Source: a virus. Taken from it: 34,781 nucleotides of DNA. Position 1 is the stretch's first letter; every line of letters begins with the position of its first letter. The position numbers were made by a program, and so were the translations under genes. The stretch spans positions 1-34,781 of IMG/VR virus record IMGVR_UViG_3300047377_000453, one strand, 5' to 3'. Under the pieces are notes generated by a model, which saw nothing but the letters and a program-made list of their open reading frames with translations, searched no databases and was not told the origin of the DNA. This document shows positions 12,072 to 32,051 of this stretch, one piece after another.

Positions 12072-12352
12072 AATACCTACTGATAGCAGACAGCCCGGCC
12101 ACCCTCCCTTTTGCGGTTGATATAGACGAAGAGACTATTGAGCAGGCGTTAAACAGGGCTACAACAATGGAGGCCGAAGAGGGCTTCATGACCTGTCTGT
12201 TTATGGTTGATCTTGAGTCCGGTGAGGCCAAGCGAATGTACAGAGATGGTGAGGCATGGGCTGTTAGTGATACGGCCTACGAACGCAACTTAGGCGTAGC
12301 AACCCCTGATGAGTACTTTCAAGAAGCAGGCACTATGGAGATAGCTGAGTGA
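12068..12352 (+). CDS. Small protein, possible fibre chaperone
   Basis: 94 residues starting by ATGA overlap at 12068; a GTG or ATG upstream lies inside the previous gene. The product has a compact alpha/beta look (MKYLLIADSPATLPFAVDID, EEGFMTCLFMVDLESGEAKRMYRDG), contains no repeats and is acidic. Small acidic proteins after fibre genes are often fibre-assembly chaperones, so that is a reasonable guess. It ends TMEIAE, matching the TQEI tags of the two fibre genes upstream, and the GGAG of those codons (12337-12340) serves the next GTG start. Confidence 0.75.
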   Translation: MKYLLIADSPATLPFAVDIDEETIEQALNRATTMEAEEGFMTCLFMVDLESGEAKRMYRDGEAWAVSDTAYERNLGVATPDEYFQEAGTMEIAE

Positions 12353-13191: not shown

Positions 13192-13192
13192 G

Positions 13193-14059: not shown

Positions 14060-14065
14060 GAGTAA

Positions 14066-14776
14066 ATGATGAGAATGTTAGACAACCCTTATCTGCAAAG
14101 CCTTATGGCTAATGGCATGAACGTGCCGGGCAGTCAATTTAACGTCCCTGGCGGCACGTACACGATGAGCGGCAAACCCGCTACTGGCCCTTTTCAAAAC
14201 AACACCAACACGCCTTTTAGAACGGTTAGTGGTATTGGCCAATACGGGCAGGGGCTCAACTCTTCAGCTGCGCAGATTTATGAGCATTTCAGTGGCGCTC
14301 AAAATGCTAATGGCCGCAAGTATTCTGATCATGGCTTAAAGCCAATCAATCCGAGGGAGCAGATTCAGTCAATTCAAGACTTCCGCAATCGTGGGAGCTT
14401 GGCGATGCCTGCCGGCCCTTCTGCGCTGGAGTGGGGCAATCTAGCTAACAACAATGATGTCCTTTCTTTTATGCGTCAGAACGGCGCTCTTGGCGGGGAC
14501 TCTCTCGATTGGATGGGCAAGTGGTTTGGCGAGTCAGGTATTGGTGGCGGTAAAGACTTCCTGACCGGCAATGTTCGACACTGGGATTACATGAATAGCG
14601 GTCTGACAGATCAGAACAAGGGCATTGTCGGTAACGCTATGAATTATCTAAATCAATTCTGGTCACCGCTCGAGCAGGGTAAAGGCATGCCGGCAGACCC
14701 GGCCCCTACAGCTCCTCCTGGCGGCATTTTCAATTTTGACCCAGAAACAATGGCTTCAATGATGAGAGGTTTGTAA
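14066..14776 (+). CDS. Putative internal virion/tail protein
   Basis: 236 residues with RBS AGGAGTAA and two adjacent ATGs; the first is used here. The product is rich in Asn, Gly, Met and Ser, with few charges (PYLQSLMANGMNVPGSQFNV, GSLAMPAGPSALEWGNLANNND). A more ordinary folded part lies at 95-205, including WMGKWFGESGIGGGKDFLTG. It opens a set of five low-charge proteins before the early region, the usual position for podovirus ejection proteins. TAATG overlap couples it to the next gene. No family recognised. Confidence 0.75.
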   Translation: MMRMLDNPYLQSLMANGMNVPGSQFNVPGGTYTMSGKPATGPFQNNTNTPFRTVSGIGQYGQGLNSSAAQIYEHFSGAQNANGRKYSDHGLKPINPREQIQSIQDFRNRGSLAMPAGPSALEWGNLANNNDVLSFMRQNGALGGDSLDWMGKWFGESGIGGGKDFLTGNVRHWDYMNSGLTDQNKGIVGNAMNYLNQFWSPLEQGKGMPADPAPTAPPGGIFNFDPETMASMMRGL

Positions 14777-15567
14777 TGAGCTACTTACTAGATATTTTCA
14801 ACAAGCGGCAGCCAGCGCCACAGGTGTCTGCGCCACAGCAATGGCAGCGCCCAATGGCTATGCCATCAGGTGGGCCTAATACGGGTGCGCCTGTACCAAT
14901 TCCCTTTTTAAATGAAGGAGTGCAAGGCGAATCAGCGCCGCAACCGGCTCAATTTAGACATCAGTATCAAGCCTCCGGGATTCAGCCTCCCAGCATGATG
15001 AGCCAGCTAAATGCTCAAAATTCCCCACCTCCAGGATTGGCTGGAATGTTCTCCGGCGGTGCTACGCCACCTCTAATGGGTGCTGGCCCTAGCTGGGCAT
15101 CTATGACCGGCAATATGAGTGGCGGCGGCATGGGCGGTGGCGCTGTTGATCAAATGCCGGCTAATCCGAGCATGGGTGGCATGTGGAGTGGGCCGGCGCC
15201 TATCCCGAGCATGGGTGGCGGCATAGGGCAAGCCAGCCCACCTCCAGGATTGGCTGGAATGTTCTCCGGCGGTGCTACGCCACCTCTAATGGGTGCTGGC
15301 CCCGGCTGGAGTGCTTCATTGAGTCCGGGCATGGGCGGCGCAGGGATGGGTGGCGGCTTTGTTAGCCAAATGCCTAGCCCGCCTAATCCCAGCATGGGTG
15401 GCGTAGGGCAGATGCCGGCTTTCCAGCCTCCACAACCAATGCCTTTTACTAACCGACCCATGCCGCAGTGGGGCGCTCCTAATTTCTCCTTGCAGAGCGG
15501 AACAATTGGTGCGCCACAGCCATCTCCTATGAACGGGATGATGAAAGGCATGTTTGGCGTCCGATAG
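14776..15567 (+). CDS. Met/Gly/Pro-rich repetitive virion protein
   Basis: 263 residues of very low complexity, dominated by G, P, M, S and A. An internal duplication is clear: a 22-residue block with PPPGLAGMFSGGATPPLMG appears twice, 71 residues apart (about 83-104 and 154-175), each followed by a related GGMGGG...QMP...NPSMGG tail. The end is basic (MKGMFGVR). A disordered, flexible protein is expected, as in some ejected internal proteins. The start overlaps the previous stop (TAATG); the next gene starts 11 bases after the stop. Confidence 0.78.
   Translation: MSYLLDIFNKRQPAPQVSAPQQWQRPMAMPSGGPNTGAPVPIPFLNEGVQGESAPQPAQFRHQYQASGIQPPSMMSQLNAQNSPPPGLAGMFSGGATPPLMGAGPSWASMTGNMSGGGMGGGAVDQMPANPSMGGMWSGPAPIPSMGGGIGQASPPPGLAGMFSGGATPPLMGAGPGWSASLSPGMGGAGMGGGFVSQMPSPPNPSMGGVGQMPAFQPPQPMPFTNRPMPQWGAPNFSLQSGTIGAPQPSPMNGMMKGMFGVR
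15024..15302 (+). repeat. Two exact 66-base direct repeats, in frame
   Basis: Bases 15024-15089 and 15237-15302 are identical over 66 positions, offset 213 bases (71 codons). The lack of silent differences means the duplication is recent or kept identical by recombination. Sequence around the copies is related but diverged, so an older larger repeat may have been locally homogenised. Confidence 0.9.
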
Positions 15568-15577
15568 GGGATAAGCA

Positions 15578-16840
15578 ATGAGCTGGTTCACAGACCTTTT
15601 TAAGAGCGAGACAGACACCACTGTCCAAATGCCGCAGTGGCAGGAGGATGCGCTGCGTGAAGGCATAACAAACCTTCAAGGCGCTGGTGTTCCTCAATTA
15701 AATCCAGACAACATGACCGCGGGGATGAATCCCTGGCTGATGGAGAGTCTTGCTGGTGCGGCCAATTATGCAACCGGCGCAGGCGCTGATCAGGTAGCGA
15801 TGATGAATGCTATGGGTCTGGGCCAAGCAAGCACTGCCGATCAAATGGCGGCTTTGGCTGGCTTGCAGACGCAGTACGGCGATATGGCTCTTTCTGGCGC
15901 TGGTAGCTGGATTATGAATGAGCTCATGGCGAATATGTCTGACGCCAAGAAGGGCGGCGGTGGCTCTTCAATGATGATGGGCGGCGGCGGAGGCGGTGGC
16001 GGCGGTTTTGGCGGCGGTGGCACTACGCTGGGCGGCGATCTGAAGTTTAAGTATGACCAAGGCACGTTTGATCAGTCATACAACAATCTGATTGGCTCTG
16101 CGCAGGGCGCTTTTGATTCGTGGTCAAACAAGACCAAGACCAACAATCTGTTTGAGAATCTGCCAGGCTTAAAGATTGGCTCGCAGATGCTTGGTGGCGC
16201 TAATACCAAGGTAGGCCAAAACGCTTCATTGCTTGATGCGCTGACTAACCAGCAGATCACTGATTACGGTGCTCAGATGCAACAGTGGGCCTCTGGTACG
16301 GCTGACGCCAATGCTATGAGGGCGGGTCAAGGCAATCAGCAGACCGCAATGGGCAAGTATCAGACAGATGTAAATGCGGCTACGAGCAGGGCTAACGCGG
16401 CGATGTCTGCGGCTGCCAGTGCGGCTAATGCAAGGCTGGCTGCTGACACGCAAAGATACAGCGCATTGGTTGGCGCTGCTGGCAATATGTTTGGTTATGG
16501 CTCTGGCCTGCTGGGTGATGCCAGTACTTCACTCTCTAACGCTAACACTGGTTATGGTCAGGCGGCTGATACGTTTGGCAATGCCAATACCCAGGCCATT
16601 AATAACCTGGATACCAGCTTGGCGGCGGGTGATTACGTTCAGAAATATGACCAGATGGCGCTGAACAATTGGAATAACGCCAACAAATACAACATGGAAA
16701 TGCCGTACAACATGCAATTGGATTACTTCAACGCGGTGAACGGCATTCCCAAAGGATCTAACGTTGACTCGAGTCCAGGTGTTATGCAGGCCATTGGTCA
16801 GACTGCCTCAATGGGTATGGGCTTTGGCCTCTGGAGCTAA
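15578..16840 (+). CDS. Putative DNA ejection/internal virion protein
   Basis: 420 residues, RBS GGGGATAAG. The N-terminus (MSWFTDLFKSETDTTVQMPQWQ) and the long Ala/Asn/Gly/Gln-rich helical parts (215-360) are typical of P22 gp7- or gp16-type and related podovirus ejection proteins, as is the end NWNNANKYNMEMPYNMQ plus YFNAVNGIPKG. A glycine run (GGGGGGGGGFGGGG, about residues 139-152) after a Met run makes a flexible hinge. The role, helping DNA cross the host envelope, is inferred from position and composition. Confidence 0.78.
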   Translation: MSWFTDLFKSETDTTVQMPQWQEDALREGITNLQGAGVPQLNPDNMTAGMNPWLMESLAGAANYATGAGADQVAMMNAMGLGQASTADQMAALAGLQTQYGDMALSGAGSWIMNELMANMSDAKKGGGGSSMMMGGGGGGGGGFGGGGTTLGGDLKFKYDQGTFDQSYNNLIGSAQGAFDSWSNKTKTNNLFENLPGLKIGSQMLGGANTKVGQNASLLDALTNQQITDYGAQMQQWASGTADANAMRAGQGNQQTAMGKYQTDVNAATSRANAAMSAAASAANARLAADTQRYSALVGAAGNMFGYGSGLLGDASTSLSNANTGYGQAADTFGNANTQAINNLDTSLAAGDYVQKYDQMALNNWNNANKYNMEMPYNMQLDYFNAVNGIPKGSNVDSSPGVMQAIGQTASMGMGFGLWS

Positions 16841-16849
16841 GGAGAGAAA

Positions 16850-18265
16850 ATGAGCTTTTTCGATAGTTATGGTCTAGGGATGCAGCAGGATGTCGGGCTT
16901 GATCTCCAGGCTCGAGACCCCCGAATGCAGAACGCGGCACCTCGTATGATTACGTCGTCTCCTGCATCTCAGGGTTCCGGTATAACGAGCTTTGAGGATC
17001 TTCAGCAAGCTATTTCTGGATCGGGCTTTGTGCCGCCTTTAGGGTCTACTGGCACTCCTCCGTGGAATCCGGCCCCGTCTGGAGGCGGCGTGTCTTCAGC
17101 ATCTCCTATGCCGGCATCCCCTGCAGTAATCAACGGTGCTACAGGTGCAGTTGAGCCGCCGGCTATAGCGCCAACATCTATTCCCATGCCAGAAGGCGTG
17201 ACGCGCCGTGACAGGCTCATGGCTGGCTTTTCTATGATGGCCGCGGCTGGTACGCCGCAGTTCTCTCAGGTGGCCGCTGGCGTCAATGTGGGGCTTATAG
17301 AGAAAGAAAAGAACGCCAGAGAGGCGCGTCAGGAGATGATGGCTTTGACGCAGCCGCAATCGTATCAAGTGAAGATGAATGACCAGATATTTTTAGCTAC
17401 TGAGCCCGCAAAAGCTCGTTATAACAAAGAGACAAACAGCATTGAAATGATCCCTGTCGAAGAGCAAGGACAACCAACGTACAAGCCTTTGCTAGATGCT
17501 CGCACTGCAACTGCTAAGGGCGCTGATCATCCTGGTGGCGCGAGCGGGTGGCGTGAGGAGGATTACGTTAAAAACTATCAAGCGCTTCCCCTAGACCAGC
17601 AGCTAGCCTTTGCAAAGTCAATGGGCGTTGATGATCGGGTTTTGTCAGAATTTGAATTGCAGACGATATGGAATAAAAACAGCGCGGGTCTTGCTGGCGC
17701 AATTGCGTCAGCGACAAAAGGGGCCAACATTAACACCGAGGCAGAGACTAACGACTTTATCCGGCTACGGGATGCAGTTGAGTACATTGACGATGATTTG
17801 GCCGATATTGATGCGCAGATTGAAAATGTTTCCAAGAGAGAGCGAGGCGGCATTTTCCAGCCGGTGGAGCAGCTGGCAAACAGAGTGCTTGCCGAGTTTG
17901 GCAGCAAAGAGGCCGCTTTAGAGGCATCAGATGAAGAGATTATGGGGTCTATGGCTATTCAGAACATGATGACCTGGTTCAAGGAGCAGGGCTTGGGCGC
18001 AAGAGGCTTGGATACGCCAGCAGAGTTTCGGGCATGGCTGCGCGCCACAGGTGGCGACCTCACTATGGACAACAGAACGGCCTTACACTTTCTTGAAAAG
18101 CGTCGAGAAGGGATGTTGCGAAATGCTGAGCGATTTAATAGGGCGCTTACATCTAACAAATACAAAAATGTTGACGGCATTGGTGATTACAAGCCTCTAG
18201 CCAATTATCGTGACCGCTATGAAAACCCAGCCCCGCCACCTGGCGCGGTAATTGACGGGCAATAA
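16850..18265 (+). CDS. Putative internal virion (ejection) protein
   Basis: 471 residues behind a strong AAGGAGA. The first 125 residues are disordered (Pro, Ser, Gly); then a helical Met/Ala stretch (RRDRLMAGFSMMAAAG) and a helical body (240-440) with charged heptads (EAETNDFIRLRDAVEYIDDD). Ordered helical body plus long disordered N-terminus is common in ejection proteins. It ends in TAATG overlap with the following gene. No known enzyme motif (lysozyme, peptidase) is seen. Confidence 0.77.
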   Translation: MSFFDSYGLGMQQDVGLDLQARDPRMQNAAPRMITSSPASQGSGITSFEDLQQAISGSGFVPPLGSTGTPPWNPAPSGGGVSSASPMPASPAVINGATGAVEPPAIAPTSIPMPEGVTRRDRLMAGFSMMAAAGTPQFSQVAAGVNVGLIEKEKNAREARQEMMALTQPQSYQVKMNDQIFLATEPAKARYNKETNSIEMIPVEEQGQPTYKPLLDARTATAKGADHPGGASGWREEDYVKNYQALPLDQQLAFAKSMGVDDRVLSEFELQTIWNKNSAGLAGAIASATKGANINTEAETNDFIRLRDAVEYIDDDLADIDAQIENVSKRERGGIFQPVEQLANRVLAEFGSKEAALEASDEEIMGSMAIQNMMTWFKEQGLGARGLDTPAEFRAWLRATGGDLTMDNRTALHFLEKRREGMLRNAERFNRALTSNKYKNVDGIGDYKPLANYRDRYENPAPPPGAVIDGQ

Positions 18266-20088
18266 TGATGAAGACAGCAACTAATCCAGAAACAGGCGAG
18301 CGATTTGTATTGGTCAATGGACAATGGCAACCAATGCAAACTGCCACAAACCCAGAGACTAATGAGCAGTTTGGATTGATTGACAGCCAATGGCAGCAAT
18401 TGTCATCCTCTGAGCCAGTGCCGGGCGCTTCTAATCCCCTCGCTCGTCAGCAGGAAATGGCGGCTAATCGCAATTCTCCCTTGGGCATAGCGCAGTCAGT
18501 TGTTGAGGGGATTACTAATCCTATTTATGGGCTTTCTCAAGTCGCCTACAACGCCGCTAACGAGTTTGCGCCGGGCATTGTTGATGGCATAGAGGCAGCA
18601 GACAGTTGGCTGTATGACAACACCGGAGGCGTTTTGGGCTCCCCTGGCGGTGACGTTAATCAACAGATAGCTGACCGCGCTGACATGATGGAGCTAAACA
18701 CAGGTTATTCGTCTGATGAGCTTAATCCCGTAGAGCTCATTTCTGAGGTGGCGCCATATTTGCTCGCTGGAGGCCCAGCAATGAGTGCGGCAAAGGGTGT
18801 GCTGGCGCCAAGTAATGTTGCAAAGCTGGGCGGTGCTGGCGCAGCTGGCGGCGCCTCCATACCGATTGAAGATGTCGATGAAAACTATTGGGCCAAGGTC
18901 GGTACAAATTCAGCGGTAGGCGCGGGAATGGGCATGGCTTTGCCTCCGCTGGCATCCGCTGCAACTAACAAGCTACTGAAGAATGTCGTCTCACCGGAGA
19001 TGGATACATTGCGACAGATGGGTGTCACCCCCTCCCTTGGTCAGCAGATCGGGGGAGCGGTTAATGACTTAGAGCAAAAAATGACTAGCATCCCGATTAT
19101 GGGTGGCGCTATAAATTCCGTAAGAGAGTCAGCCAAGGACTCCTGGCGTAATGCTACGGTTCAACGCGCACTTGATCCTGTAGACGCAAAGATAGTTGGT
19201 GCGTCTGGAGATATGCAGGGCGCAATGGCAGATTCATTTGATGCCGTCAGCGCTGCGTACACCTCTGCGCTTGATGACATTGGCGGGTTTAGGCTGTCAA
19301 ATCGCACCAATCACGACTTAGAGCGCCTGTACGAGAACGTCAAAAAGGGTGCTCTGACTGATGATGAGGTAAGTGCATTTACGCGGTTTTGGGATGGAAA
19401 CATTACGCCGAGAATTAAGGACGGCGGCATCACTGCGCAGACGTACAAAAAACTCGATTCAGAGCTATCTACTGCAATTGCCAATCAGAAAAACTCTGAA
19501 GTTAAGGGCGCGTTTTTAGAGGCAAAAGATATTCTAAGTCGCCAAGTTGCAGACGAGTTTCCAGACGCCGCAGGGCAAATTAAAGCCGCCAATGAGGCGT
19601 ATGCCAATCTTGTGCGGGTAAATAAGGCTGTGGGCAGCTCTCTTGGAAGAGACGGCAACTTTGGTGCCGGTCAGCTTTCGACTGCCATTAGAAGTGCAGA
19701 CAAGTCTGCTCAAAAGAAAGCCGCGACCACTGGCACCGCTCCTATGTCAGAAGAGGCGCGAGCGGGCAGGCGACTGATGGATACAGTTCCCAATAGCGGC
19801 ACTGCTGACCGATCGCTAACCGCTCTAGGGGTTTTGGGGGCCACTGGTCTTGCGTCAGCGTCAATAGGGCCAGAGGCTCTAACTGCGGCCCTGCCTTACT
19901 TGATTGCTGGGGGCGTTTCTACTGCAATGTCTACCCCACTAGCGCAACAAGGGCTAAGTAAGGGACTTAGAGCCGCTGCCAATGTCGCTACGTCAAATAG
20001 AAATCCGGCGTTTCATCTTGGCGTATTGGCTGATGAGCTTGGCGATGAAGAAGATGATTGGTTTTACGGGCGGTTAATAGAGCGATAA
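18265..20088 (+). CDS. Large internal virion protein with N-terminal W-repeats
   Basis: 607 residues, last gene of the late block. It starts with two 22-residue repeats, TATNPETGERFVLVNGQWQP and TATNPETNEQFGLIDSQWQQ, a module known at the start of several podovirus ejection or tail-lysin proteins, probably for docking inside the virion. Then come a hydrophobic, Gly/Ala-rich region (140-230) with possible membrane-active helices and a long helical domain (300-500). A second hydrophobic stretch (TALGVLGATGLASASIG, about 525-545) lies near the end. No catalytic motif is seen. The stop at 20088 faces the opposing operon only 11 bases away. Confidence 0.77.
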   Translation: MMKTATNPETGERFVLVNGQWQPMQTATNPETNEQFGLIDSQWQQLSSSEPVPGASNPLARQQEMAANRNSPLGIAQSVVEGITNPIYGLSQVAYNAANEFAPGIVDGIEAADSWLYDNTGGVLGSPGGDVNQQIADRADMMELNTGYSSDELNPVELISEVAPYLLAGGPAMSAAKGVLAPSNVAKLGGAGAAGGASIPIEDVDENYWAKVGTNSAVGAGMGMALPPLASAATNKLLKNVVSPEMDTLRQMGVTPSLGQQIGGAVNDLEQKMTSIPIMGGAINSVRESAKDSWRNATVQRALDPVDAKIVGASGDMQGAMADSFDAVSAAYTSALDDIGGFRLSNRTNHDLERLYENVKKGALTDDEVSAFTRFWDGNITPRIKDGGITAQTYKKLDSELSTAIANQKNSEVKGAFLEAKDILSRQVADEFPDAAGQIKAANEAYANLVRVNKAVGSSLGRDGNFGAGQLSTAIRSADKSAQKKAATTGTAPMSEEARAGRRLMDTVPNSGTADRSLTALGVLGATGLASASIGPEALTAALPYLIAGGVSTAMSTPLAQQGLSKGLRAAANVATSNRNPAFHLGVLADELGDEEDDWFYGRLIER

Positions 20089-20099
20089 TGAACCGATAC

Positions 20100-20303
20100 C
20101 TATACCCGGGCGTTCTTTGATCTCCTGTGCTTGTTTTTAGTCTCTAGACTGTCCATATACAGCCCAAACGCAACGCAGTAAATTGTGACTGACCACATGA
20201 CGTAATGCATTGGAGCGTCTCCCCACGGCACCTGTAAAAACAAAACGTCGAAAAAATTACTCAGTGTTTCTGAGGCAGCAGTTTTAAATTCGTTAAGTGT
20301 CAT
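20100..20303 (-). CDS. Small membrane protein, holin candidate
   Basis: 67 residues, last gene of the leftward operon, starting with ATGA overlap on the zinc protein before it. A single hydrophobic helix (MHYVMWSVTIYCVAFGLYM, about 32-50) is preceded by an acidic/amphipathic N-terminus and followed by a basic tail (KNKHRRSKNARV). One membrane helix with a charged tail beside the late genes fits a small holin or an i-spanin, but nothing proves it. Its final codons contain an orphan Shine-Dalgarno sequence (see the repeat entry). Confidence 0.75.
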   Translation of the reverse strand: MTLNEFKTAASETLSNFFDVLFLQVPWGDAPMHYVMWSVTIYCVAFGLYMDSLETKNKHRRSKNARV

Positions 20304-20319: not shown

Positions 20320-20458
20320 ATTTGTCACGCTGTTTGCATTTGTTGGAGCAAAACATAGCCCGAGAGTCTCGGGCCTTGAATGTCTCTCCGCATTCTTTGC
20401 AGTCAACGTCACGCTGGGGACGCTTGAGGCTCAGTGCCTGGGCGTCTTTATCGGTCAT
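20300..20458 (-). CDS. Small zinc-ribbon protein (C-x2-C...C-x3-C)
   Basis: 52 residues from ATG 20458, which overlaps the stop of the membrane gene upstream by 11 bases; a longer frame upstream lacks support. Cysteines at 20, 23, 37 and 41 (CKECGETFKARDSRAMFCSN then KC) form a treble-clef-like zinc site typical of short phage DNA- or RNA-binding proteins. The tail is basic (KQRDKYRRSK). It ends ATGA into the holin-like gene. The exact partner is unknown. Confidence 0.82.
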   Translation of the reverse strand: MTDKDAQALSLKRPQRDVDCKECGETFKARDSRAMFCSNKCKQRDKYRRSKE

Positions 20459-20603
20459 TAGCGGCGCTCCGCTGTTCCATACGATACTTCCGATTACGCT
20501 CATCCCAATACGAATCTCTAATGCTGGACAAAATAAACAATAAAATTCCCAGCGCCATTGGTACTAAAACAATAAGCAGTAAGACTTGAATTGCAGCTTC
20601 CAT
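20448..20603 (-). CDS. 51-residue single-pass membrane protein
   Basis: ATG 20603 is preceded by AAGGAGAATAGAT, a strong RBS; earlier in-frame starts have none. One long hydrophobic helix at residues 4-27 (IQVLLLIVLVPMALGILLFI) is followed by a charged tail (RDSYWDERNRKYRMEQR). N-out, C-in or the reverse cannot be told. It may serve in lysis (spanin- or antiholin-like) or membrane takeover. Its start region is nearly identical to that of the gene upstream (AAGGAGA...ATGGAAGC), suggesting a copied translation start. Confidence 0.78.
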   Translation of the reverse strand: MEAAIQVLLLIVLVPMALGILLFILSSIRDSYWDERNRKYRMEQRSAANDR

Positions 20604-20631
20604 ATCTATTCTCCTTGAAGTGTGGGGCCGC

Positions 20632-20832
20632 TTATGCCAGCCCCAGTTCGTCAAATTCAACATTATCGGCGTGGCATTCATCGCATCGCTTTTCAAACGC
20701 GAATTTTTCGTCGCCGCATTCCTTGCAGATCCAATCGCCCTTTTGATTGCCCCACTGCTTTGATACTCGGACGTGGCAATCGTGCAGAGTTTTAAGTAAT
20801 TCGGCGCTGTATCTCCAAACGTGCGCTTCCAT
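20632..20832 (-). CDS. Small zinc-ribbon protein
   Basis: 66 residues from ATG 20832 with RBS AAGGAGATAG. Helical N-terminus (WRYSAELLKTLHDCHVRV), then WICKECGDEKFAFEKRCDEC (residues 38-57) gives two CxxC knuckles 13 residues apart, a zinc-ribbon. The acidic C-terminus (NVEFDELGLA) is unlike its neighbours. Possibly a nucleic-acid or protein adaptor; no family recognised. Confidence 0.8.
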   Translation of the reverse strand: MEAHVWRYSAELLKTLHDCHVRVSKQWGNQKGDWICKECGDEKFAFEKRCDECHADNVEFDELGLA

Positions 20833-20891: not shown

Positions 20892-21284
20892 CTAAGGTGT
20901 CAATAGGTAATTTTCCCTATTTTTCAGGCTCAACCCATCCAAACATTTGTAGAGATACGCGGCCACCCGTGGGTCTTCCAGGCGCTTCCAATGTTGTCTC
21001 TGATACCGCTTGTACTCGCGCCGGCACTCTGCCGCATTCAACATCGCAACGCCTGCTACGCTTTTCCAGGTGCGCCCACCCAACCGCTCTTGCACAATGA
21101 TTTCCCGGCGCTGGCGCTTCCACTTTTTCATGACCTCACGCCGCATCTCCACGGCCTGAGCTTCCAGCTGCTTTGCATGCTCTAGCGTGGACTTTGCCCG
21201 GCGGCGGTAATATGCAGCCTCCCGATCCTTGCCATCAGCAGCCTCTAGCTCCTGCGCTACAGACATTGGCACGTTGGAATACAT
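20892..21284 (-). CDS. Basic helical protein, possible transcription regulator
   Basis: 130 residues; the ATG at 21284 overlaps the stop of the tiny membrane peptide (TAATG), which fixes it over an upstream GTG. The product is strongly basic and helical: RRRAKSTLEHAKQLEAQAVEM is a coiled coil, then VMKKWKRQRREIIVQERLGG and a putative helix-turn-helix (RTWKSVAGVAMLNAAECRREY, about 78-98). This pattern is similar in style to phage late regulators of the ArpU/RinA or Q kind, and the gene sits between early and late regions, so an activator or antiterminator of late genes is a guess. Not proven. Confidence 0.75.
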   Translation of the reverse strand: MYSNVPMSVAQELEAADGKDREAAYYRRRAKSTLEHAKQLEAQAVEMRREVMKKWKRQRREIIVQERLGGRTWKSVAGVAMLNAAECRREYKRYQRQHWKRLEDPRVAAYLYKCLDGLSLKNRENYLLTP

Positions 21285-21364
21285 TACAGCTGCCCCCCCA
21301 TAGCAAGCACCGCCATGGTGACGATGCACACACAGGCCATTGCCAACCACATTTCATTCATCAT
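21284..21364 (-). CDS. Tiny membrane peptide (MMNEMW...GGQL)
   Basis: 26 residues, from two adjacent ATGs (21364, 21361), between the zinc-ribbon gene and the basic protein gene. It overlaps the former by 11 bases and the latter by TAATG. Residues 6-22 form one hydrophobic helix (WLAMACVCIVTMAVLAM). It matches, without gaps and at 10 of 26 positions, the 26-residue peptide at 29408-29488 on the other strand (shared ends MxNEMW and GGxL). The coupled starts and the paralogue argue strongly that it is a real gene. No known family; a small membrane regulator or antiholin is conceivable. Confidence 0.7.
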   Translation of the reverse strand: MMNEMWLAMACVCIVTMAVLAMGGQL

Positions 21365-21527
21365 TGGTTTTCCCCCACCAAATCTCGTAGTAGGCGCCGC
21401 ACTCGCCGCAGCTGAGGTTTGTCACGATCAGGTGCTCATCGTTATCAGCATCATTATCGCCACCCCAAATCAAAATACCGTCCTCGCAATGCCAACACTT
21501 ACGCCGGTTGTCGTTTTCTTTAGTCAT
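21354..21527 (-). CDS. 57-residue zinc-ribbon protein
   Basis: ATG 21527 overlaps the previous stop (ATGA) and has a GAGAGG site. Cysteines at 11, 14, 40 and 43 (RKCWHCEDG and LSCGECGAYYEIWW) make two CxxC knuckles, a classical zinc ribbon. The linker is acidic (GGDNDADNDEHL). The aromatic C-terminus (YYEIWWG) is common in ribbons that bind protein partners. The stop is inside the start region of the tiny membrane peptide. Confidence 0.8.
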   Translation of the reverse strand: MTKENDNRRKCWHCEDGILIWGGDNDADNDEHLIVTNLSCGECGAYYEIWWGKTNDE

Positions 21528-21743: not shown

Positions 21744-21895
21744 AGCCTTTTTTCTCTACCTATCGCCTTGTCATAGTGCCGGCATGCCGGGCAGTAAAAC
21801 CCGACCAGCTTTAAACTTTCTGCCCTGCGCACTGGCTGCGCGGTTGCGCCACATTTCTCGCAGGGCTTACAATCTTTTATGCTTGAGTCTGCCAT
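21740..21895 (-). CDS. Small zinc-ribbon protein
   Basis: 51 residues, ATG 21895 with GGAG 12 bases before it. Cysteines at 9, 12, 15 and then 35, 38 (DCKPCEKCGATAQ; FYCPACRHYDKA) form a ribbon similar to the other mini-proteins of this cluster. Basic end (GREKRL). It overlaps the start of the opposing VRR-NUC gene by 17 bases, head to head, and ends in ATGA. Confidence 0.8.
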   Translation of the reverse strand: MADSSIKDCKPCEKCGATAQPVRRAESLKLVGFYCPACRHYDKAIGREKRL

Positions 21896-22166
21896 ACAGA
21901 AAAAAATCTCCGATTATCTGACCGCGCTGCCAGAGTGCTGGACATGCAAAGTGGTGGCAGCAAACAAGCGCGGAGTTCCCGACATCCTGGCCGTGATCAG
22001 CGGCCGATTTGTCGCAATAGAAGTTAAAGCCCCAGGCGGCAAACCGTCCAAGCTACAACTTGCGCAGCTTAGGCGCATTGAGGCGGCAGGCGGTATTGCC
22101 ATATTGGCCGAGTCAGTCGATGAAGTCATAGCGTCCCTCGCCAGCGCCGATATAGAGCTAGGTTAA
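21879..22166 (+). CDS. VRR-NUC domain nuclease
   Basis: 95 residues, an almost bare VRR-NUC domain of the PD-(D/E)XK superfamily: KKISDYL at the start, NKRGVPDILAVISGRFVAIE at 30-48 with the catalytic Asp35 and E-V-K (48-50), Gln60 in GGKPSKLQ, and the RRIEAAGG helix. Such proteins cut branched or flapped DNA and in phages usually sit beside an SF2 helicase. Here the gene is on the opposite strand to its helicase neighbour and overlaps it tail to tail by 41 bases. Only a weak RBS (CAGGGC) is seen. Probably real, given all catalytic residues. Confidence 0.88.
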   Translation: MLESAIQKKISDYLTALPECWTCKVVAANKRGVPDILAVISGRFVAIEVKAPGGKPSKLQLAQLRRIEAAGGIAILAESVDEVIASLASADIELG

Positions 22167-23319
22167 AATCTTTTTTATCTGTCACTCTGTTAAAAACCTC
22201 ACGGCTAATCCCGCCGTTGGTCACAATGAAATGAACAGTCGCATCGCCCTGGCGCATGATGTTGATGCCGCGCTCTCTCCGCTGCGCATGCTTGGCGCCG
22301 CTAAAGTCAGTGCCGGCAACGACAAAATCTTTGTACTCGGAAAGGTCAACGCCTTCAGCGTGAGCGTTCGATGAGAGCAGCCTGGCTTTTTTAAACTTAC
22401 GCTCGAACACATGCCGGGTGCTGACGTAGTGACACATCAAGGCCAGCTTATCGTGATCGCCAAATGTATCAAGGATGTAATCAGCAACTTCATCGTGCTC
22501 AGTTTGCCAGTAATCATCGCCAATCTTTAGGCCGCCATACTCCAGCTGATGAATTGCCAAACGCTCACTGATAATTGACTCAAACAAAACCTCGTTGCCA
22601 TGTACTTCAAGCACACCATCGCGCACTTGTTTAATTAGCGCCTTAGTCTCCGGCAAGAGCTTAACAACGTGCAGCTCATCAACTGCCTCGCCCACAATGC
22701 CGGCATCCTCTTGCGTCATGGTCACAACAAAATCAGCAATGCGCTCATCAAGTGACGCCTTGCATCGGTTGTACTGCTCAATCGTGCGCCCCTGGACGGT
22801 CATGGTGTTGGGAATGCCGTAGTGCTTAAAGAATTTATAGAAGCTAATAAACTCCAAAGTAAACGGGCCGTATTTACTGATAGCCGTCTGATGATAAATA
22901 GCTAACGGCGTCTCTATCGTCATGGTTCCCGACATAATCAGTAGCGGCTTGTGCCATGCCACACGGCGTATGTTTTCAAACCGTTTATTAGGCTTGCCGC
23001 GATTGCCCAGGCGGTGGCTTTCATCAAGAATCACAAAATCAAAATCATCTTTGTTGAGCTTGTGCGCCTGCTCATAATTGGTAACAGTGATGTTTACCTT
23101 GGTGCCGGTGCGCTCAATTTCACTGTGCCACCCGGGGATCGCCGCCTTGGGCGTAAACACCAGAACACTGTCAAAATGCAGCAGCTCGCACACCCGTATG
23201 GCCGTGGCAGTCTTGCCCGACCTGGGGGCGCCCGCCAGGGCAGCAAAGCTGTCGCGCTCAATGCGATCCGCAATATCTTCGCTGGCCTGAATTTGATGGG
23301 GGGCGTATGGCATTTTCAA
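22126..23319 (-). CDS. SF2 (SNF2-like) DNA helicase
   Basis: 397 residues, ATGA-coupled to the gene upstream. Motif I GAPRSGKT at 30-37, motif II ILDESH at 97-102 (DExH), motif III SGT at 130-132, and motif VI-like RRERGINIMRQG near 350. N-terminal Q-motif-like PHQIQASEDIA is present. The short length and SNF2-like walker set match the phage helicases that pair with VRR-NUC and DUF2800/2815 proteins, acting in recombination or replication-fork repair. ATP-dependent translocation on DNA is expected. No accessory domain is seen. Confidence 0.9.
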   Translation of the reverse strand: MKMPYAPHQIQASEDIADRIERDSFAALAGAPRSGKTATAIRVCELLHFDSVLVFTPKAAIPGWHSEIERTGTKVNITVTNYEQAHKLNKDDFDFVILDESHRLGNRGKPNKRFENIRRVAWHKPLLIMSGTMTIETPLAIYHQTAISKYGPFTLEFISFYKFFKHYGIPNTMTVQGRTIEQYNRCKASLDERIADFVVTMTQEDAGIVGEAVDELHVVKLLPETKALIKQVRDGVLEVHGNEVLFESIISERLAIHQLEYGGLKIGDDYWQTEHDEVADYILDTFGDHDKLALMCHYVSTRHVFERKFKKARLLSSNAHAEGVDLSEYKDFVVAGTDFSGAKHAQRRERGINIMRQGDATVHFIVTNGGISREVFNRVTDKKDFNLALYRRWRGTL

Positions 23320-24149
23320 TCACCACAAAAACACGCAATGGTTTCATCCCCAGCCAAGTCAAGCTGGCCTTGCTCTCTGGCTATGACTTGCATCTGCCCA
23401 TAGGTTGGGCGGTCATTGCGCCATTTAGCCCCTGATTGCCTTGTGGCTGGACACTCACGCTCCATCCTTGCCCACCAATCAGCGCGGCTAGGATTCTCAA
23501 GAATTAACGACTCAATGAGATTCGCGCCTTTGAGATAGCACAGGTCGCAGTTGCCGTGAGGGGTGACGCCGTTGACGTTAGGCAAGCCAAGGTCAAACGG
23601 TTGCTGCGCCCAAAACGCAGATACGGTTTCTTTAGTGACACCGGCTGCAACCAATGGCCTGCGGTGCGGCTCAATCTTGGCGGCTCTGCGTTGCTCGTCG
23701 GCGCGTATGCCGATAATCGACATAGATTCAGCGATTGCCATATCTTCTGATAGCCCTTGCGCCACTAGGTATCGGGCAATGGTTTTAATCTTCATTTCAA
23801 TAGTGCAGAACCGCGCCACAGGATTAGGTAGATATTTCTTGGCGTGAATCAGAGCCTCAAACGGCTCGCCCTCTCTTGCGGCAGTGTCGAAATCCACCAC
23901 CTTAAAGCGATCCTTTGTTTTCTCTGCCCACTGATATTCCAGCCAGACAATCGGAACGTCCCAATACTTGCCGCAGTCCCTGACAAATTCCAGCGTCTCC
24001 TCTGCCTCCTTGCCGGTATTGGCAAAGGTCACAATGCAGTCATCAGGCAGACCGTCATTGGCGTCGATGAAGCGCCAAAGCATGTATGCGCTGGTTCTGC
24101 CGCCGCTAAAGCTGATGCAGCTAGGCTCTGTTAGCTTAAAAATATTCAT
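23316..24149 (-). CDS. PAPS reductase/DndC-like PP-loop protein
   Basis: 277 residues with RBS GGAGTAATAA. The PP-loop SFSGGRTSAYML (13-24) binds ATP/PAPS-type substrates; ANTGKEAEETLEF follows (43-55), as in adenylyl-activating sulfurtransferases. The middle has NPVARFCTIEMKIKTI, the C-terminal half HGNCDLCYLKG and ECPATRQSG, ending CFCGD, so Cys pairs may hold a metal or cluster. Genes of this type are frequent in phages, often near recombination or DNA-modification genes, but their substrate is unknown. Whether it modifies DNA, nucleotides or tRNA here cannot be told. Confidence 0.88.
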   Translation of the reverse strand: MNIFKLTEPSCISFSGGRTSAYMLWRFIDANDGLPDDCIVTFANTGKEAEETLEFVRDCGKYWDVPIVWLEYQWAEKTKDRFKVVDFDTAAREGEPFEALIHAKKYLPNPVARFCTIEMKIKTIARYLVAQGLSEDMAIAESMSIIGIRADEQRRAAKIEPHRRPLVAAGVTKETVSAFWAQQPFDLGLPNVNGVTPHGNCDLCYLKGANLIESLILENPSRADWWARMERECPATRQSGAKWRNDRPTYGQMQVIAREQGQLDLAGDETIACFCGD

Positions 24150-24226: not shown

Positions 24227-24661
24227 TTAAAATTTATTTTTCCCTTCACCGTTAGCAGAATGCCATTGCATGTGGCAGGCTTGGCAAAGCCACCTAACTT
24301 CTAACGGCTTTAAATAATCATCATGGTGAGCAACAACAGCAAAATCAGAATCGCAGTTTTCGCAGTTATCTTTTTTAACAATTTTCCCGTTTACTTTTGC
24401 TCGAATTACCGCGCTATGTGCGCGTAACTGATTAACAGTGCGATTTTGCTTGCCTCGCCTTTCCTTTCTGCCCCTATCGTATTTCAAGATAGCTTCCCGA
24501 AATTTAGGGTTAAATCTGCGAGCCCTGTCATCTTCCTTGGCGCATTCTTTGCACTTGCCCAGCAATCCATCTTTCATTTTGGGGTGCGCATAAAAATCAG
24601 TGCGGGGCTTTTCAGCCCCACACTTAAAGCACTCTTTCAAATCAGAAGGGCGCTGAAGCAT
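24227..24661 (-). CDS. HNH/endonuclease VII-like nuclease
   Basis: 144 residues if begun at ATG 24661 (24664 is the alternative), 20 bases inside the previous gene. The N-terminal zinc site CFKCGAEKPRTDFY...CKEC is the treble clef common in small phage HNH proteins; the C-terminal half carries NCENCDSDFAVVAHHDDYLK and WLCQACHMQWH (about 105-135), the HNH/EndoVII-type metal-binding and catalytic His pair. In between is a basic stretch (RKERRGKQNR). A structure-specific or homing-type nuclease is likely. RBS is weak, so translation is probably coupled. Confidence 0.85.
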   Translation of the reverse strand: MLQRPSDLKECFKCGAEKPRTDFYAHPKMKDGLLGKCKECAKEDDRARRFNPKFREAILKYDRGRKERRGKQNRTVNQLRAHSAVIRAKVNGKIVKKDNCENCDSDFAVVAHHDDYLKPLEVRWLCQACHMQWHSANGEGKNKF

Positions 24662-25169
24662 CATCGTCGCCATCGCTGACATCATCAAACTCATCCATTG
24701 AGAATGAGTCGCCGCCGCCAAACGCCTCGCCATCACGATTAAACTGCACCGCGTTCAATTGCGCCTGGACAAACTTGCCGTAATTGTTTTGGAAGGCGTA
24801 AATGCTAATGCTGGCATTGACATAACAGCCGGCGTAGATCACACCATCCTCTTCCGTTACGGCAGACTTGTCTTTATTGATTATGACGGGCCGCTTTTTG
24901 GTGCTGGCTTTAACAGCCCAGACGCCTTCATAGCCGTCATAGTCTTTTGTGTCGCCATCAAGCAAGCACAATTTCGCCTTGCTCCACTCTTTGCCGAGCA
25001 CTTCCATGCCAACTTCCTTAATGGCCGCTTGCACTTCCTTTGCAATATCCGAATCTTTCGGAATCAAAAAGGTAGCCTCATACTTGTCCAGACTTTGCCC
25101 CTGATAGGACGCATGCTCAAACAGTGAAGGGAAGGATAGACGCACATCTTTTAACATTAACTTTGACAT
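24642..25169 (-). CDS. ssDNA-binding protein, DUF2815 type
   Basis: 175 residues with RBS GGAGAACC. MSKLMLKDVRLSFPSLFEHA, KYEATFLIPKDS, and the late YAGCYVNASISIYAFQNNYG segment are characteristic of the phage DUF2815 family, an OB-fold ssDNA-binding protein comparable in role to T7 gp2.5. The last 25 residues are strongly acidic (DEFDDVSDGDDDASAPF), as expected for SSB tails that recruit replication proteins. It is the usual partner of the DUF2800 nuclease encoded just before it. Confidence 0.9.
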   Translation of the reverse strand: MSKLMLKDVRLSFPSLFEHASYQGQSLDKYEATFLIPKDSDIAKEVQAAIKEVGMEVLGKEWSKAKLCLLDGDTKDYDGYEGVWAVKASTKKRPVIINKDKSAVTEEDGVIYAGCYVNASISIYAFQNNYGKFVQAQLNAVQFNRDGEAFGGGDSFSMDEFDDVSDGDDDASAPF

Positions 25170-28992: not shown

Positions 28993-29105
28993 GTGCCCTG
29001 GGCCACAAAATTGTGGGTCTGGGCCACATTAAAAATTGATTTGGGACAATCTGTAAGTCATTGATTTTTCATTTTCTTTTTTCTTATTGTCCTATGTCCC
29101 TTTTT

Positions 29106-29125
29106 AAATAAATAAATAAATAAAT
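29106..29125 (+). repeat. AAAT tandem repeat (5 copies)
   Basis: Five exact AAAT units, part of the AT-rich block in the candidate origin. Confidence 0.9.
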
Positions 29126-29150
29126 AATAAAAGAGAATATAGGATAAGGG

Positions 29151-29167
29151 ATATATATATATATATA
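29151..29167 (+). repeat. AT dinucleotide repeat (8 copies)
   Basis: Eight AT units plus A, ending just before the RBS (CGGAG, 29168-29172) of the next gene. Confidence 0.9.
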
Positions 29168-29181
29168 CGGAGTAGAAAACT

Positions 29182-29415
29182 ATGCGGGACACGGGTCAGC
29201 GGGACAAACTCAACGAAATTTTAAAGAAGGCGAAAGGGCAGGGGCCGCTGCCCTGGTCGCATTATCGGGACGCCTATTGCGGGCGGGGGAAGAAGTCCAG
29301 CAAGTTTGCTGAGCTGATGATGGAATATGCTCAGAGGTGGCCAAAGCGTATTATCATCACCCGACCATACAACGTCAGCGAGAGCCCAATGATCGAGGTG
29401 CTCGCAGATGGATAA
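29182..29415 (+). CDS. Small hypothetical protein
   Basis: 77 residues, ATG 29182 with GGAG at 29169-29172. Basic, helical N-terminus (RDKLNEILKKAKGQG), a WSHYRDAYCGRGKKSSKFAE middle and a beta end (KRIIITRPYNV). No family recognised. It ends inside the start of the tiny membrane peptide gene (ATGGATAA overlap). Its first codons carry two GGGACA copies, the motif seen in the gap upstream. Confidence 0.72.
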   Translation: MRDTGQRDKLNEILKKAKGQGPLPWSHYRDAYCGRGKKSSKFAELMMEYAQRWPKRIIITRPYNVSESPMIEVLADG

Positions 29416-29488
29416 TGAGATGTGGTGGGGATTAGGATGGGTGATATTGTTCAGCTTGGTCATGCTGCACATTGGTGGCGCCCTATGA
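29408..29488 (+). CDS. Tiny membrane peptide (MDNEMW...GGAL)
   Basis: 26 residues, overlapping the previous gene by 8 bases and the next by ATGA. One hydrophobic helix (WWGLGWVILFSLVMLHI, 6-22) between MDNE and GGAL. It aligns end to end with the minus-strand peptide at 21284-21364: both are 26 residues long and share MxNEMW at the start, GGxL at the end and ten identical residues in total. Because both lie in coupled gene strings, they look like true paralogues. Function unknown. Confidence 0.7.
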   Translation: MDNEMWWGLGWVILFSLVMLHIGGAL

Positions 29489-29661
29489 GCGATGCCAATG
29501 ATGTCATTGTGTCCGTTAAGGCCGCCCAGGTGACCGCCAATATGTTCAAAGAGCCCGCCGTCATCATGTTCGATCTGAGCGTCAAGCGTGAATCCGAGCT
29601 GGCAGCGGGCGAGCATTATCTTGAGAAAGTGCGCCCGGATACTTGCTGGCAGGCTGATTAG
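29485..29661 (+). CDS. Small hypothetical protein
   Basis: 58 residues from ATG 29485, ATGA-coupled to the membrane peptide; a longer upstream GTG start would overlap it fully and is not preferred. Beta-rich (DVIVSVKAAQ, AVIMFDLSVKRE), acidic and ending with DTCWQAD. No family recognised. Last gene before the terminator at 29739. Confidence 0.7.
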   Translation: MSDANDVIVSVKAAQVTANMFKEPAVIMFDLSVKRESELAAGEHYLEKVRPDTCWQAD

Positions 29662-29738: not shown

Positions 29739-29773
29739 GCCCGGTTGGTTGCGGCTACCGGGCCTTTACTTTT
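29739..29773 (+). terminator. Rho-independent-like terminator
   Basis: Stem GCCCGGT (29739-29745) with ACCGGGC (29757-29763), 11-base loop, followed by CTTTACTTTTC. It separates the early rightward operon from the terminase genes. The T-run is broken by A and C, so strength is uncertain. Confidence 0.6.
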
Positions 29774-29807: not shown

Positions 29808-30128
29808 ATGCCTAGTAGAGCGGGTAGCCCAAACAAGAACAAAGCCTTCCTGCTGAATCGCTTACAGGACATGTACGGCGATGATTTTCATCCCATCATG
29901 CGCATGGCTGAGAATGCTGCGCTGTTGCATGATCAGGCCCGCAACACTTCTGACGCTAACGACCTAAAGGCCAGCATTGACGCCTGGGACAAGATAGCGG
30001 CATACACAGAGCCCAAGCTAAAGGCGAGCGAGGTCAACTTAAACGCTAAGGTTGAGGCTACTGAGGTGGACATGACGGGCATCTCAGATGAGCCCGAGCC
30101 GGCCGGCGAGGACTTGTTCGGTGGCTAA
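29808..30128 (+). CDS. Small terminase subunit
   Basis: 106 residues, ATG with AGAGG upstream. SPNKNKAFLLNRLQDMYGDDFHPI (7-30), followed by ASIDAWDKIAAYTEPKLKAS, is a known pattern of podovirus small terminases: helical DNA-binding core and oligomerisation helices, then an acidic tail (DEPEPAGED). It recognises the packaging site and stimulates the large subunit. Overlaps the large subunit by GTGGCTAA. Confidence 0.86.
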   Translation: MPSRAGSPNKNKAFLLNRLQDMYGDDFHPIMRMAENAALLHDQARNTSDANDLKASIDAWDKIAAYTEPKLKASEVNLNAKVEATEVDMTGISDEPEPAGEDLFGG

Positions 30129-31593
30129 CTGGAGCTCACCCGCGGCCCGCTCGCATAGTGTCGAGCCGGTTCACCGCCTACGATACAAGCCACAGGGCAA
30201 GACCCTAAAAGAGTTTCACCTGGACAAGTCATACATGCGGGTACTGGTCGGGCCGCTAGGCAGCGGCAAGACCCAGGCCAGCATCGTTGAGATTTTGCAT
30301 CGAATCATGACGCAGCCGCCCAGCAAGGACGGCATTCGCAAGTCACGCTGGTTGGCGGTACGGAACACGCTGCCCGATCTTGAGTCCACCACGATTAAAG
30401 ACTTCAAGGCCATCACTGAGGGTATGGGCATAGGCACCTGGAAGAACGTCAGCCCGGTGACATGCACCATCGACACAATCGGCACCGATGGCGTCCCGGT
30501 CAAGGCCGAGATCATGTTCCGCTCGTTTGATAGCGGGCTGGATGAGAAGAAAGCCCGAGGTATGCAGCTGACCGGGTGCTGGCTCAATGAGCTGAAGGAA
30601 TTGCACAAAGGCAACGTCGATATGATCCTGTCGCGGGTGGGTCGATACCCCGCCCGGGCAGAGTGCCGGGATAGCTGGTACGGCGCTATTGCTGACAGTA
30701 ACTGCCCTGACTCTGATCACTGGTTGGGCCAGTTCATGCAGGGCAACAAGCCCGATAACTGGTGGATTGGTAGACAGCCTGGTGCGGTGACTAAGGTAGA
30801 TGGCCGCTGGGTTGTGAATGAGCTCGCAGAGAACATCCGCAATCTGCCCGATGCGTACTACGACAATCTGCGCCAGGGTAAGGCTGAGAATTGGATACGG
30901 GCTAACCTTGGTAACGAGCTGGTGTATGTCACCGATGGTCGCCCCGTCCACCCTAGCTTTAACGAGAGCGTCCACGTACAGCACTGTGGGCCACATCCCG
31001 GGCAGAAGGTATACGTTGGCCTTGATTGGGGTAGAACCCCTGCAGCGGCCTTCTGCTGCCTCAATGCGGATGGCACATGGTCGGTGTTCGATGAGCTCGT
31101 TACTGAGAACATGAGCGCGTACACGTTTGGCGGCATTCTCAAGGATCACATCTCAAGACATTACGCCGGGCATGACATTGAGCTGTACGGTGACCCTGCC
31201 GGCACACAGCGAGGCCAGGCTACTGATCACTCATGCTTTGAGATGCTCGAGCGTCACGACCTGTACGCCACGCCCTGCCACACCAACAAGTTTGAATTGC
31301 GGGCTGGTGCATTGGATAGCCAGCTTCAGAGACTTCAGCATGGCAAGCCCCAGATCGCCTTTGACCCTAAGTGCCGCACTCTGGTTAAGGGATTGGCGGG
31401 TGCTTATCAATTTAAGAGGCTCCAGGTTAGCGGCGATGACAGATTCAAGGATGTACCCGATAAAGGCCCAGAATCGCACGTAGTTGAAGCCTTGCATTAT
31501 GTGCTTCTGAGTGTTGATCAAGGAAGTTTTGATCAGTGGGGCGGCGTTGAAGAGCTCATAGAGTATGAGCGTGACCTGAGCGTGTTCGAGTGA
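30121..31593 (+). CDS. Large terminase subunit (packaging ATPase/nuclease)
   Basis: 490 residues from GTG 30121 within the stop of the small subunit. Walker A GPLGSGKT at 44-51; ATPase motif region MQLTGCWLNELKEL near 150-165 (NE in place of DE at the Walker B). The nuclease has GLDWG (D302), YGDPAG (D358) and ESHVVEALHY (451-460), the RNase H-fold acidic triad. It threads DNA through the portal and cuts concatemers. The nuclease has a late E in place of the usual D, a mild variation. Confidence 0.93.
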   Translation: MANWSSPAARSHSVEPVHRLRYKPQGKTLKEFHLDKSYMRVLVGPLGSGKTQASIVEILHRIMTQPPSKDGIRKSRWLAVRNTLPDLESTTIKDFKAITEGMGIGTWKNVSPVTCTIDTIGTDGVPVKAEIMFRSFDSGLDEKKARGMQLTGCWLNELKELHKGNVDMILSRVGRYPARAECRDSWYGAIADSNCPDSDHWLGQFMQGNKPDNWWIGRQPGAVTKVDGRWVVNELAENIRNLPDAYYDNLRQGKAENWIRANLGNELVYVTDGRPVHPSFNESVHVQHCGPHPGQKVYVGLDWGRTPAAAFCCLNADGTWSVFDELVTENMSAYTFGGILKDHISRHYAGHDIELYGDPAGTQRGQATDHSCFEMLERHDLYATPCHTNKFELRAGALDSQLQRLQHGKPQIAFDPKCRTLVKGLAGAYQFKRLQVSGDDRFKDVPDKGPESHVVEALHYVLLSVDQGSFDQWGGVEELIEYERDLSVFE

Positions 31594-32051
31594 GCAAGCT
31601 GCCCAGCAATGCGGTGCCTACTGCATATGCAGGCTATTACGCCACTCCCGAGGGTGATGTGTGGTCAACAAAGAAAGGCACTAAAAAACTAAAGCGCCTT
31701 GCTAACAAGCAATACGTCAAACATCACCTATATGTAGAGGGGCGTTTGATTAACAAGCTAGTTCATGTGCTTATTGCGGAGACGTTTATTGATAATCCGC
31801 ATGAGTATCCAGAAGTTAATCATAAAAATGGCGACAAGCATGATTGTTCTGTCTCCAATCTGGAATGGACAACAAGAAAAAAGAACATGGAGCATGCTGC
31901 TAATGAGCTAAAGCGTTGGCGCACTGCTAAGTATGTTTTTTTAGCAAGAGAGCTTGTGGAAGACGGCTGGACATATAGAGAAATTGGCGCGGTTGTTGGC
32001 CGCTCCGCTGCATCAGTTTACACGGCGGTGAAACGTGTCCAAACGCAGTAA
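31590..32051 (+). CDS. HNH homing endonuclease
   Basis: 153 residues, GTG start overlapping the terminase stop (GTGA). It has a NUMOD4-like N-terminus (YYATPEGDVWSTKKGTKK), then VHVLIAETFIDNPHEYPEVN and NGDKHDCSVSNLEWTTR with NMEHA, that is the HNH_3-type core, and a C-terminal helix-turn-helix (WTYREIGAVVGRSAASVYTA). Free-standing HNH genes next to terminase genes are common mobile elements of phages. It probably cuts a cognate intronless or homologous locus and is copied into it. Confidence 0.9.
   Translation: MSKLPSNAVPTAYAGYYATPEGDVWSTKKGTKKLKRLANKQYVKHHLYVEGRLINKLVHVLIAETFIDNPHEYPEVNHKNGDKHDCSVSNLEWTTRKKNMEHAANELKRWRTAKYVFLARELVEDGWTYREIGAVVGRSAASVYTAVKRVQTQ

Follow-up and report, generated by a model that had tools for sequence, protein, structure and literature searches.

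Two divergent members of a family of probable membrane microproteins in the accessory regions of a marine phage

INTRODUCTION

CydX (YbgT/YccB, PF08173) is a single hydrophobic helix of about 30 residues that binds its partner and has few conserved residues, among them a tryptophan at the N-terminal end of the helix (PMC4325964). KdpF and AcrZ are tiny single-span proteins that modulate or stabilize a larger membrane complex. YohP, the 27-residue single-span product of an E. coli stress gene, lowers the membrane potential, and positively charged residues often flank membrane-acting toxins and small membrane proteins (PMC12719787). Among the small membrane proteins of phages, which can be single-span, are the holins and pinholins. 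The lambdoid nin regions are made up of tightly packed, overlapping small genes that are swapped between phages (PMC8022706), and families of conserved, unannotated phage genes encoding fewer than 50 amino acids have been described (PMC11323111).

The peptides described here, which we have named NEM, share with CydX the approximate size, the single hydrophobic helix and the placement of conserved residues, including a tryptophan, at its N-terminal end. They differ in lacking the CydX motif YxxWxxGx15E/D (PMC4325964), having no tyrosine, and in matching neither PF08173 nor any other Pfam or NCBIfam family up to E 10 (six members searched); no cydAB genes lie near them, and they are encoded in phage accessory regions. 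KdpF and AcrZ resemble NEM in being tiny and single-span, but the same Pfam and NCBIfam searches returned no KdpF family match, and PDB sequences gave none for the one member searched (that of contig L289, below). YohP agrees with NEM in length and single span, whereas NEM peptides lack basic residues, carry an invariant NEM motif and are found in phage operons. Unlike holin and pinholin genes, NEM genes do not stand beside lysis genes, match no known holin family and have no supported dual start. Their surroundings are reminiscent of lambdoid nin regions, but tblastn of both window peptides against a collection of 50,697 annotated phages, for which a 26-residue query is near the limit, found no membrane micro-gene of the NEM type. 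The sole match in PHROGs, obtained for the member from contig L008, was weak and to a family of unknown function. NEM is also separate from the small-protein families noted above (PMC11323111), being defined by its neighbors, its frame conservation and its apparent movement between operons.

Genes of fewer than 30 codons are routinely missed. Sequence by itself is enough to show that NEM, from a phage of uncultivated marine bacteria, is conserved and under selection; one genome has two copies, and the genes that precede it are of four unrelated kinds. Defined by its motif and with Halieaceae as likely hosts, the family adds to the little-known membrane microproteins of phages.

RESULTS

Two related peptides in separate operons

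The window, meaning the whole stretch of DNA analyzed here, is an entire virus record of 34,781 bases. The two peptides (P1 and P2) and the features that surround them are as follows.

29182 to 29415, plus strand: ORF77 (77 amino acids), upstream of P1; its TAA stop is nucleotides 6–8 of P1
29395 to 29398, plus strand: Shine-Dalgarno-like GAGG, 9 nucleotides ahead of the P1 start
29408 to 29488, plus strand: P1, a 26-residue single-span membrane peptide reading MDNEMWWGLGWVILFSLVMLHIGGAL
29485 to 29661, plus strand: ORF58 (58 amino acids), downstream of P1; its start overlaps the P1 stop by 4 nucleotides, as ATGA
29739 to 29763, plus strand: weak candidate terminator (GC-rich hairpin, then a U-rich tail) in the gap between ORF58 and TerS
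29808 to 30128, plus strand: terminase small subunit TerS, a landmark, 78% identical in kin contig L010
20892 to 21284, minus strand: 130-residue ORF, downstream of P2; its start overlaps the P2 stop by 1 nucleotide, as TAATG
21284 to 21364, minus strand: P2, a 26-residue single-span membrane peptide reading MMNEMWLAMACVCIVTMAVLAMGGQL
21354 to 21527, minus strand: zinc-ribbon gene (57 amino acids), upstream of P2; its TGA stop is nucleotides 9–11 of P2
21372 to 21376, minus strand: G-rich Shine-Dalgarno-like GGGGG ahead of the P2 start

P1 lies upstream of the terminase genes, 320 nucleotides before TerS, while P2 is part of a recombination-type operon on the opposite strand. The overlap with the preceding gene is 8 nucleotides for P1 and 11 for P2. 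The original prediction had described two peptides of equal length at these positions, with MxNEMW at the start, GGxL at the end and 10 identities in 26 ungapped positions, each locked by overlapping starts and stops between neighbors that are unrelated for the two copies; every one of these particulars was recovered when re-read from the sequence.

The neighbors themselves are conserved to varying extents. ORF77 has homologs in contigs L010 (66% identity) and L289 (57% over 68 residues), each with a NEM peptide next after it. ORF58 is 88% identical in L010 and missing in L289, where a C5 DNA methyltransferase gene comes after the peptide instead. The zinc-ribbon gene is 57% identical to a gene of contig L012 that likewise precedes a NEM peptide, and the 130-residue ORF behind P2 had no match below E 0.01 in Pfam or PHROGs. 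The hairpin after ORF58 recurs at the same place in L010, and neither hairpin folds better than shuffled sequence. Of the parts expected in a moron, an insert complete with its own promoter and terminator, no sigma-70 site was seen upstream, and the terminator would be this weak candidate.

Among all same-length ATG-initiated ORFs of 22–34 residues in the window, P1 and P2 form the top-scoring start-anchored pair (BLOSUM62 score 53). When the window was shuffled 60 times with its dinucleotides preserved, the highest pair score was 39, or 19 among hydrophobic ORFs, and the probability of at least 10 identities after shuffling the residues of P2 was 1.5e-5. The ten identities by themselves are weaker evidence, as 4 of the 60 shuffled windows reached 10 or more among all ORFs.

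Relatives in kin phages

Our kin set comprised the window and six contigs, most of which are fragments; five were found by a scan with the large terminase subunit (TerL) and one by a pattern scan of bacterial genomes. In four of the five TerL-found contigs the sequence extends upstream of TerS, and each of these has a related micro-ORF in that part; the fifth (L011) begins within TerS. The pattern scan gave 17 matches, one of which was a hydrophobic 26-residue peptide. The resulting members, beyond P1 and P2, are listed below.

L010: MGNEMWWGLGWVILFSLIMLHVGGAL, with neighbors as for P1 and 23 of 26 residues identical to P1
L012: MDNEMWIAAVSWSLACGCFLLWMELVA, behind a zinc-ribbon gene
L008: MDNEMVISLLAVIVMSAVILAGDMGCAL, with a C5 DNA methyltransferase gene before and an HNH gene after it
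L009: ...YNEMWVSLAITLGVCVFILMM, shortened, with the initial ATG lost, behind a NinG-like gene
L289: MDNEMWIAFALICLVTLAVLAMSGTL, at 8407–8327 of an 18.5-kb contig in a Halieaceae metagenome-assembled genome (MAG) from the North Sea

Relatives are thus present in five kin contigs; the original prediction would have failed had kin phages lacked them. It had further called two copies of so small a gene unusual, and this agrees with what we see: a second NEM copy was found in none of the other kin contigs, among which L012 alone is near whole (34,194 bases, one NEM peptide).

At all seven places the upstream gene terminates within codons 2–4 of the peptide, always in the same frame, either with TAA at nucleotides 6–8 or with TGA at nucleotides 9–11, and in most of them the 3' end overlaps the next start as ATGA or TAATG. 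Four kinds of gene occupy the upstream position (ORF77, zinc-ribbon, methyltransferase and NinG-like). Because similar 8-nucleotide overlaps join other genes of these phages (for instance the methyltransferase and Zn-ribbon genes of L289), we regard the overlap as the style of the region and not as a special device. For the same reason we give less weight to the notion that upstream proteins ending in 'DG*' mark out the peptide as a special supplier of stops. The NEM gene changes upstream neighbors between phages and so roams a nin-like accessory region, and we describe it as a probable accessory element of such regions. Its carriers appear to be marine podovirus-like phages of a rare lineage.

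DNA patterns for MxNEMW in viral contigs gave, beyond L010 and L012, chance matches only among the matches listed; scans with the helicase and primase reached distant phages, none with a NEM peptide, and a TerL scan of bacterial genomes found none. With the zinc-ribbon protein as a guide, a NEM peptide followed in L012 only among the best 80 relatives, so the pairing is local. That protein (motif in the window CWxCxxGxLIWGGDxD...CGxCGxYYExWWGK) belongs to a family that is very common in marine phages, with at least 548 confirmed IMG/VR relatives and others in cyanophages and pelagiphages, and its neighbors are always changing. Two further contigs, L195 (position 7345) and L205, encode a 56-residue, two-span holin-like protein with a NEM-like start (MTNEMWLGVARHILTVIGGGFVAKG); we rejected it as a relative, because the likeness of its initial MTNEMW was selected by the search pattern itself.

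Relationship of the two copies

Contig L289 is itself from a kin phage. Its identity to the window is 69% for the exonuclease, 75% for the single-stranded DNA-binding protein (SSB), 79% for the helicase, 80% for a VRR-type ORF and 82% for a 51-residue ORF, and it has the same primase and an ORF77 homolog. Its NEM peptide lies directly behind that homolog, in the syntenic position of P1, yet is closer in sequence to P2 (17 of 26 residues identical; E 5e-7, or 6e-8 in a search of seven contigs) than to P1 (11 of 26; E 6.5e-4 in the seven-contig search). A peptide that is P2-like and yet sits at the P1 locus places P1 and P2 in one family, of which we consider them two divergent members. The methyltransferase encoded after it shares 50% identity with the one that precedes the L008 peptide.

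The two copies had been called paralogous. Their homology and their single-span character hold up, but a recent duplication does not: in a nearest-relative comparison P2 is nearer to the L289 peptide (17 of 26) and P1 to the L010 peptide (23 of 26) than they are to each other (10 of 26). P2 thus looks to have been acquired or to have split from P1 anciently. The left arm of L289 lacks the stretch with the zinc-ribbon gene and P2 but elsewhere matches the window at 69–82%, and the pair of zinc-ribbon gene and NEM peptide is common to the window and L012; together these observations suggest that P2 came with the zinc-ribbon gene.

Halieaceae are the likely host group of NEM-carrying phages, as judged from a single MAG bin; a profile search of 140 genomes of the family and 391 of the order found no second carrier near that bin.

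Anatomy of the peptides and conservation of the frame

NEM peptides are 26–28 residues long and consist of the motif M-x-N-E-M-[W/V]-phi-[G/A/S] followed by one hydrophobic span, usually ending in G/S-G/C-x-L. M1, N3, E4 and M5 are invariant in all six full-length members. The conserved N terminus overlaps the upstream gene, and conservation of codons 2–3 may be partly at the DNA level; codons 4–5 lie past the upstream stop in P1, L010, L012, L008 and L289 and are still invariant. No member contains K or R. Among the 531 ATG-initiated ORFs of 22–32 residues at the seven loci (window and kin), those that are hydrophobic and without K or R are family-member sub-starts only. Hydrophobic moments of 0.03–0.11 indicate spans and not amphipathic helices. 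As there are no basic residues and the N terminus is acidic, an outward-facing N terminus is plausible from charge.

Each of the six members that begin with an ATG at codon 1 has a Shine-Dalgarno-like site ahead of it, with energies of −5.5 to −9.3 kcal/mol that fall in the top 1–12% of ATGs (P1, −7.2 kcal/mol, top 3.7%; P2, −8.4, top 2.3%). The energies for the invariant ATG at codon 5 are weak (−3.7 to +0.3 kcal/mol).

Differences between P2 and the L289 peptide are distributed 9/3/15 over the three codon positions, and none of 5000 random sets with an equal number of substitutions was as conservative. We read this pattern as the mark of purifying selection on the protein. P1 and its L010 counterpart differ at 7 nucleotides (2/1/4 by codon position; P = 0.0016 against random substitutions), and between positions 29437 and 29484 the changes are silent or conservative in the P1 frame, with residue changes in the overlapping ORF58 frame. 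NEM thus has both homologs in independent phages and signs of selection on its frame, as expected of a conserved microprotein family, and the view that P1 and P2 are homologous, real and translated-looking single-span membrane peptides is supported by these comparisons.

DISCUSSION

Proposed role of NEM

We tentatively propose that NEM is an accessory, single-span, partner-binding membrane effector of nin-like regions rather than a lysis hole, and would put the probability of this reading at roughly 0.45. The NEM gene would be translationally coupled, through the overlaps, to whichever gene lies upstream, and its peptide presumably co-translated early or in mid infection. It would insert into the host inner membrane as a single helix, its acidic N terminus probably outward for want of a basic residue that would keep it inside, and might bind a host or phage membrane protein through the conserved N-terminal end and small residues. 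The mode of action would be like that of the small subunits KdpF, CydX and AcrZ, and no lysis hole would be made. The second copy, P2, could serve as an extra dose or have a different partner preference.

A more specific version of the same proposal, which we regard as unlikely, is that a roaming NEM micro-subunit retunes a host inner-membrane complex involved in respiration, transport or DNA entry, with the copies diverged for different partners or for pairing with each other. The gene would move between operons as its first codons provide the stop of the upstream gene.

Alternative explanations

Other functions can be imagined, for which a possible order is superinfection exclusion, then depolarization, then a holin. 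An inner-membrane peptide could, in the superinfection block that the original prediction also offered, prevent DNA entry by related phages or a receptor-linked channel that they use, with two divergent copies widening the block. The early or mid-infection location is compatible with such a role, and a span that diverges fast in a gene exchanged among phages would fit an arms race. We nevertheless think exclusion distinctly unlikely: NEM shows no homology to described exclusion proteins in Pfam, NCBIfam or PHROGs (apart from the one weak match mentioned above), and no sigma-70 site was found upstream as a promoter of its own, so that expression from a lysogen would be conjecture. To our knowledge, the superinfection-exclusion proteins reported so far are larger than NEM peptides.

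NEM could instead be a depolarizing microprotein whose oligomers let protons through the membrane and dampen the metabolism of the infected host. Its size and single span are those of YohP (PMC12719787), but the basic residues that would flank the span of a type I toxin or depolarizing peptide are absent, no member having any K or R, and the helices are not amphipathic. We consider this role quite improbable.

The original prediction had offered a holin/antiholin pair, which would have P1 and P2 make the lysis hole or set its timing, and this idea we find doubtful enough to rank below depolarization. NEM peptides are single-span membrane peptides, no other holin was recognized in the window, and P1 stands 320 nucleotides before TerS, the relative Y3 having a holin just ahead of TerS. 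Yet the window proteins scanned with PHROGs and Pfam included no recognizable endolysin or spanin, and within the structural module (12349–20088) no endolysin, holin or spanin family was found. P2 and the kin members are located among DNA-metabolism (recombination) or nin-like genes, and the basic C terminus of a holin is lacking. The weak Shine-Dalgarno energies at codon 5 do not speak for a dual start of the lambda S kind, and the 56-residue MTNEMW holin of L195 and L205, as a product of the search pattern, lends no help. A membrane hetero-oligomer was also part of that prediction; an obligate hetero-pair of P1 and P2 is unlikely because near-whole L012 has one copy, which counts against the holin/antiholin pair as well.

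Another reading is that the micro-ORF merely couples translation of the adjoining genes and that the peptide itself is inert. The upstream stop carried in frame within the 5' end at seven of seven places, and the overlap of the 3' end with the next start in most of them, are what such a device would look like; the 9/3/15 pattern with its conservative residue changes, pointing to selection on the protein, and the hydrophobicity retained in all members largely refute it, and it seems to us very improbable.

That P1 and P2 are chance ORFs, alike by accident or because longer frames run across them, for example an extended ORF58 (whose frame does stay open across P1, as a 79-residue GTG-initiated ORF), is refuted by a pair score above that of all 60 shuffles, by changes between 29437 and 29484 that fit the P1 frame and not that of ORF58, and by the relatives in five kin contigs.

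Other features of these phages

Two candidate membrane proteins are encoded at 20100–20303 and 20448–20696 (minus strand) of the window. A VRR-NUC-like ORF (MLESAIQKKISDYL...; 21879–22166, plus strand) is situated on the strand opposite the helicase operon, which it overlaps at its ends, and is 80% conserved in L289 (14951–14667). Genes of the PAPS reductase and HNH types (23319–24149 and 24230–24736, minus strand) are inserted between those for SSB and the helicase, and are absent from the otherwise collinear L289. HNH endonuclease genes also occur around TerL, in the TerS–TerL gap of L011 (L050) and after TerL in the window (31590–32051); their differing sites among kin phages suggest mobile insertions. 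Finally, (ATAA)n and (TA)n repeats mark an AT-rich tract in the gap between the primase gene and ORF77 (29100–29170); the tract recurs at the same place in L289 (about 8660–8740) and is possibly a promoter or replication site.
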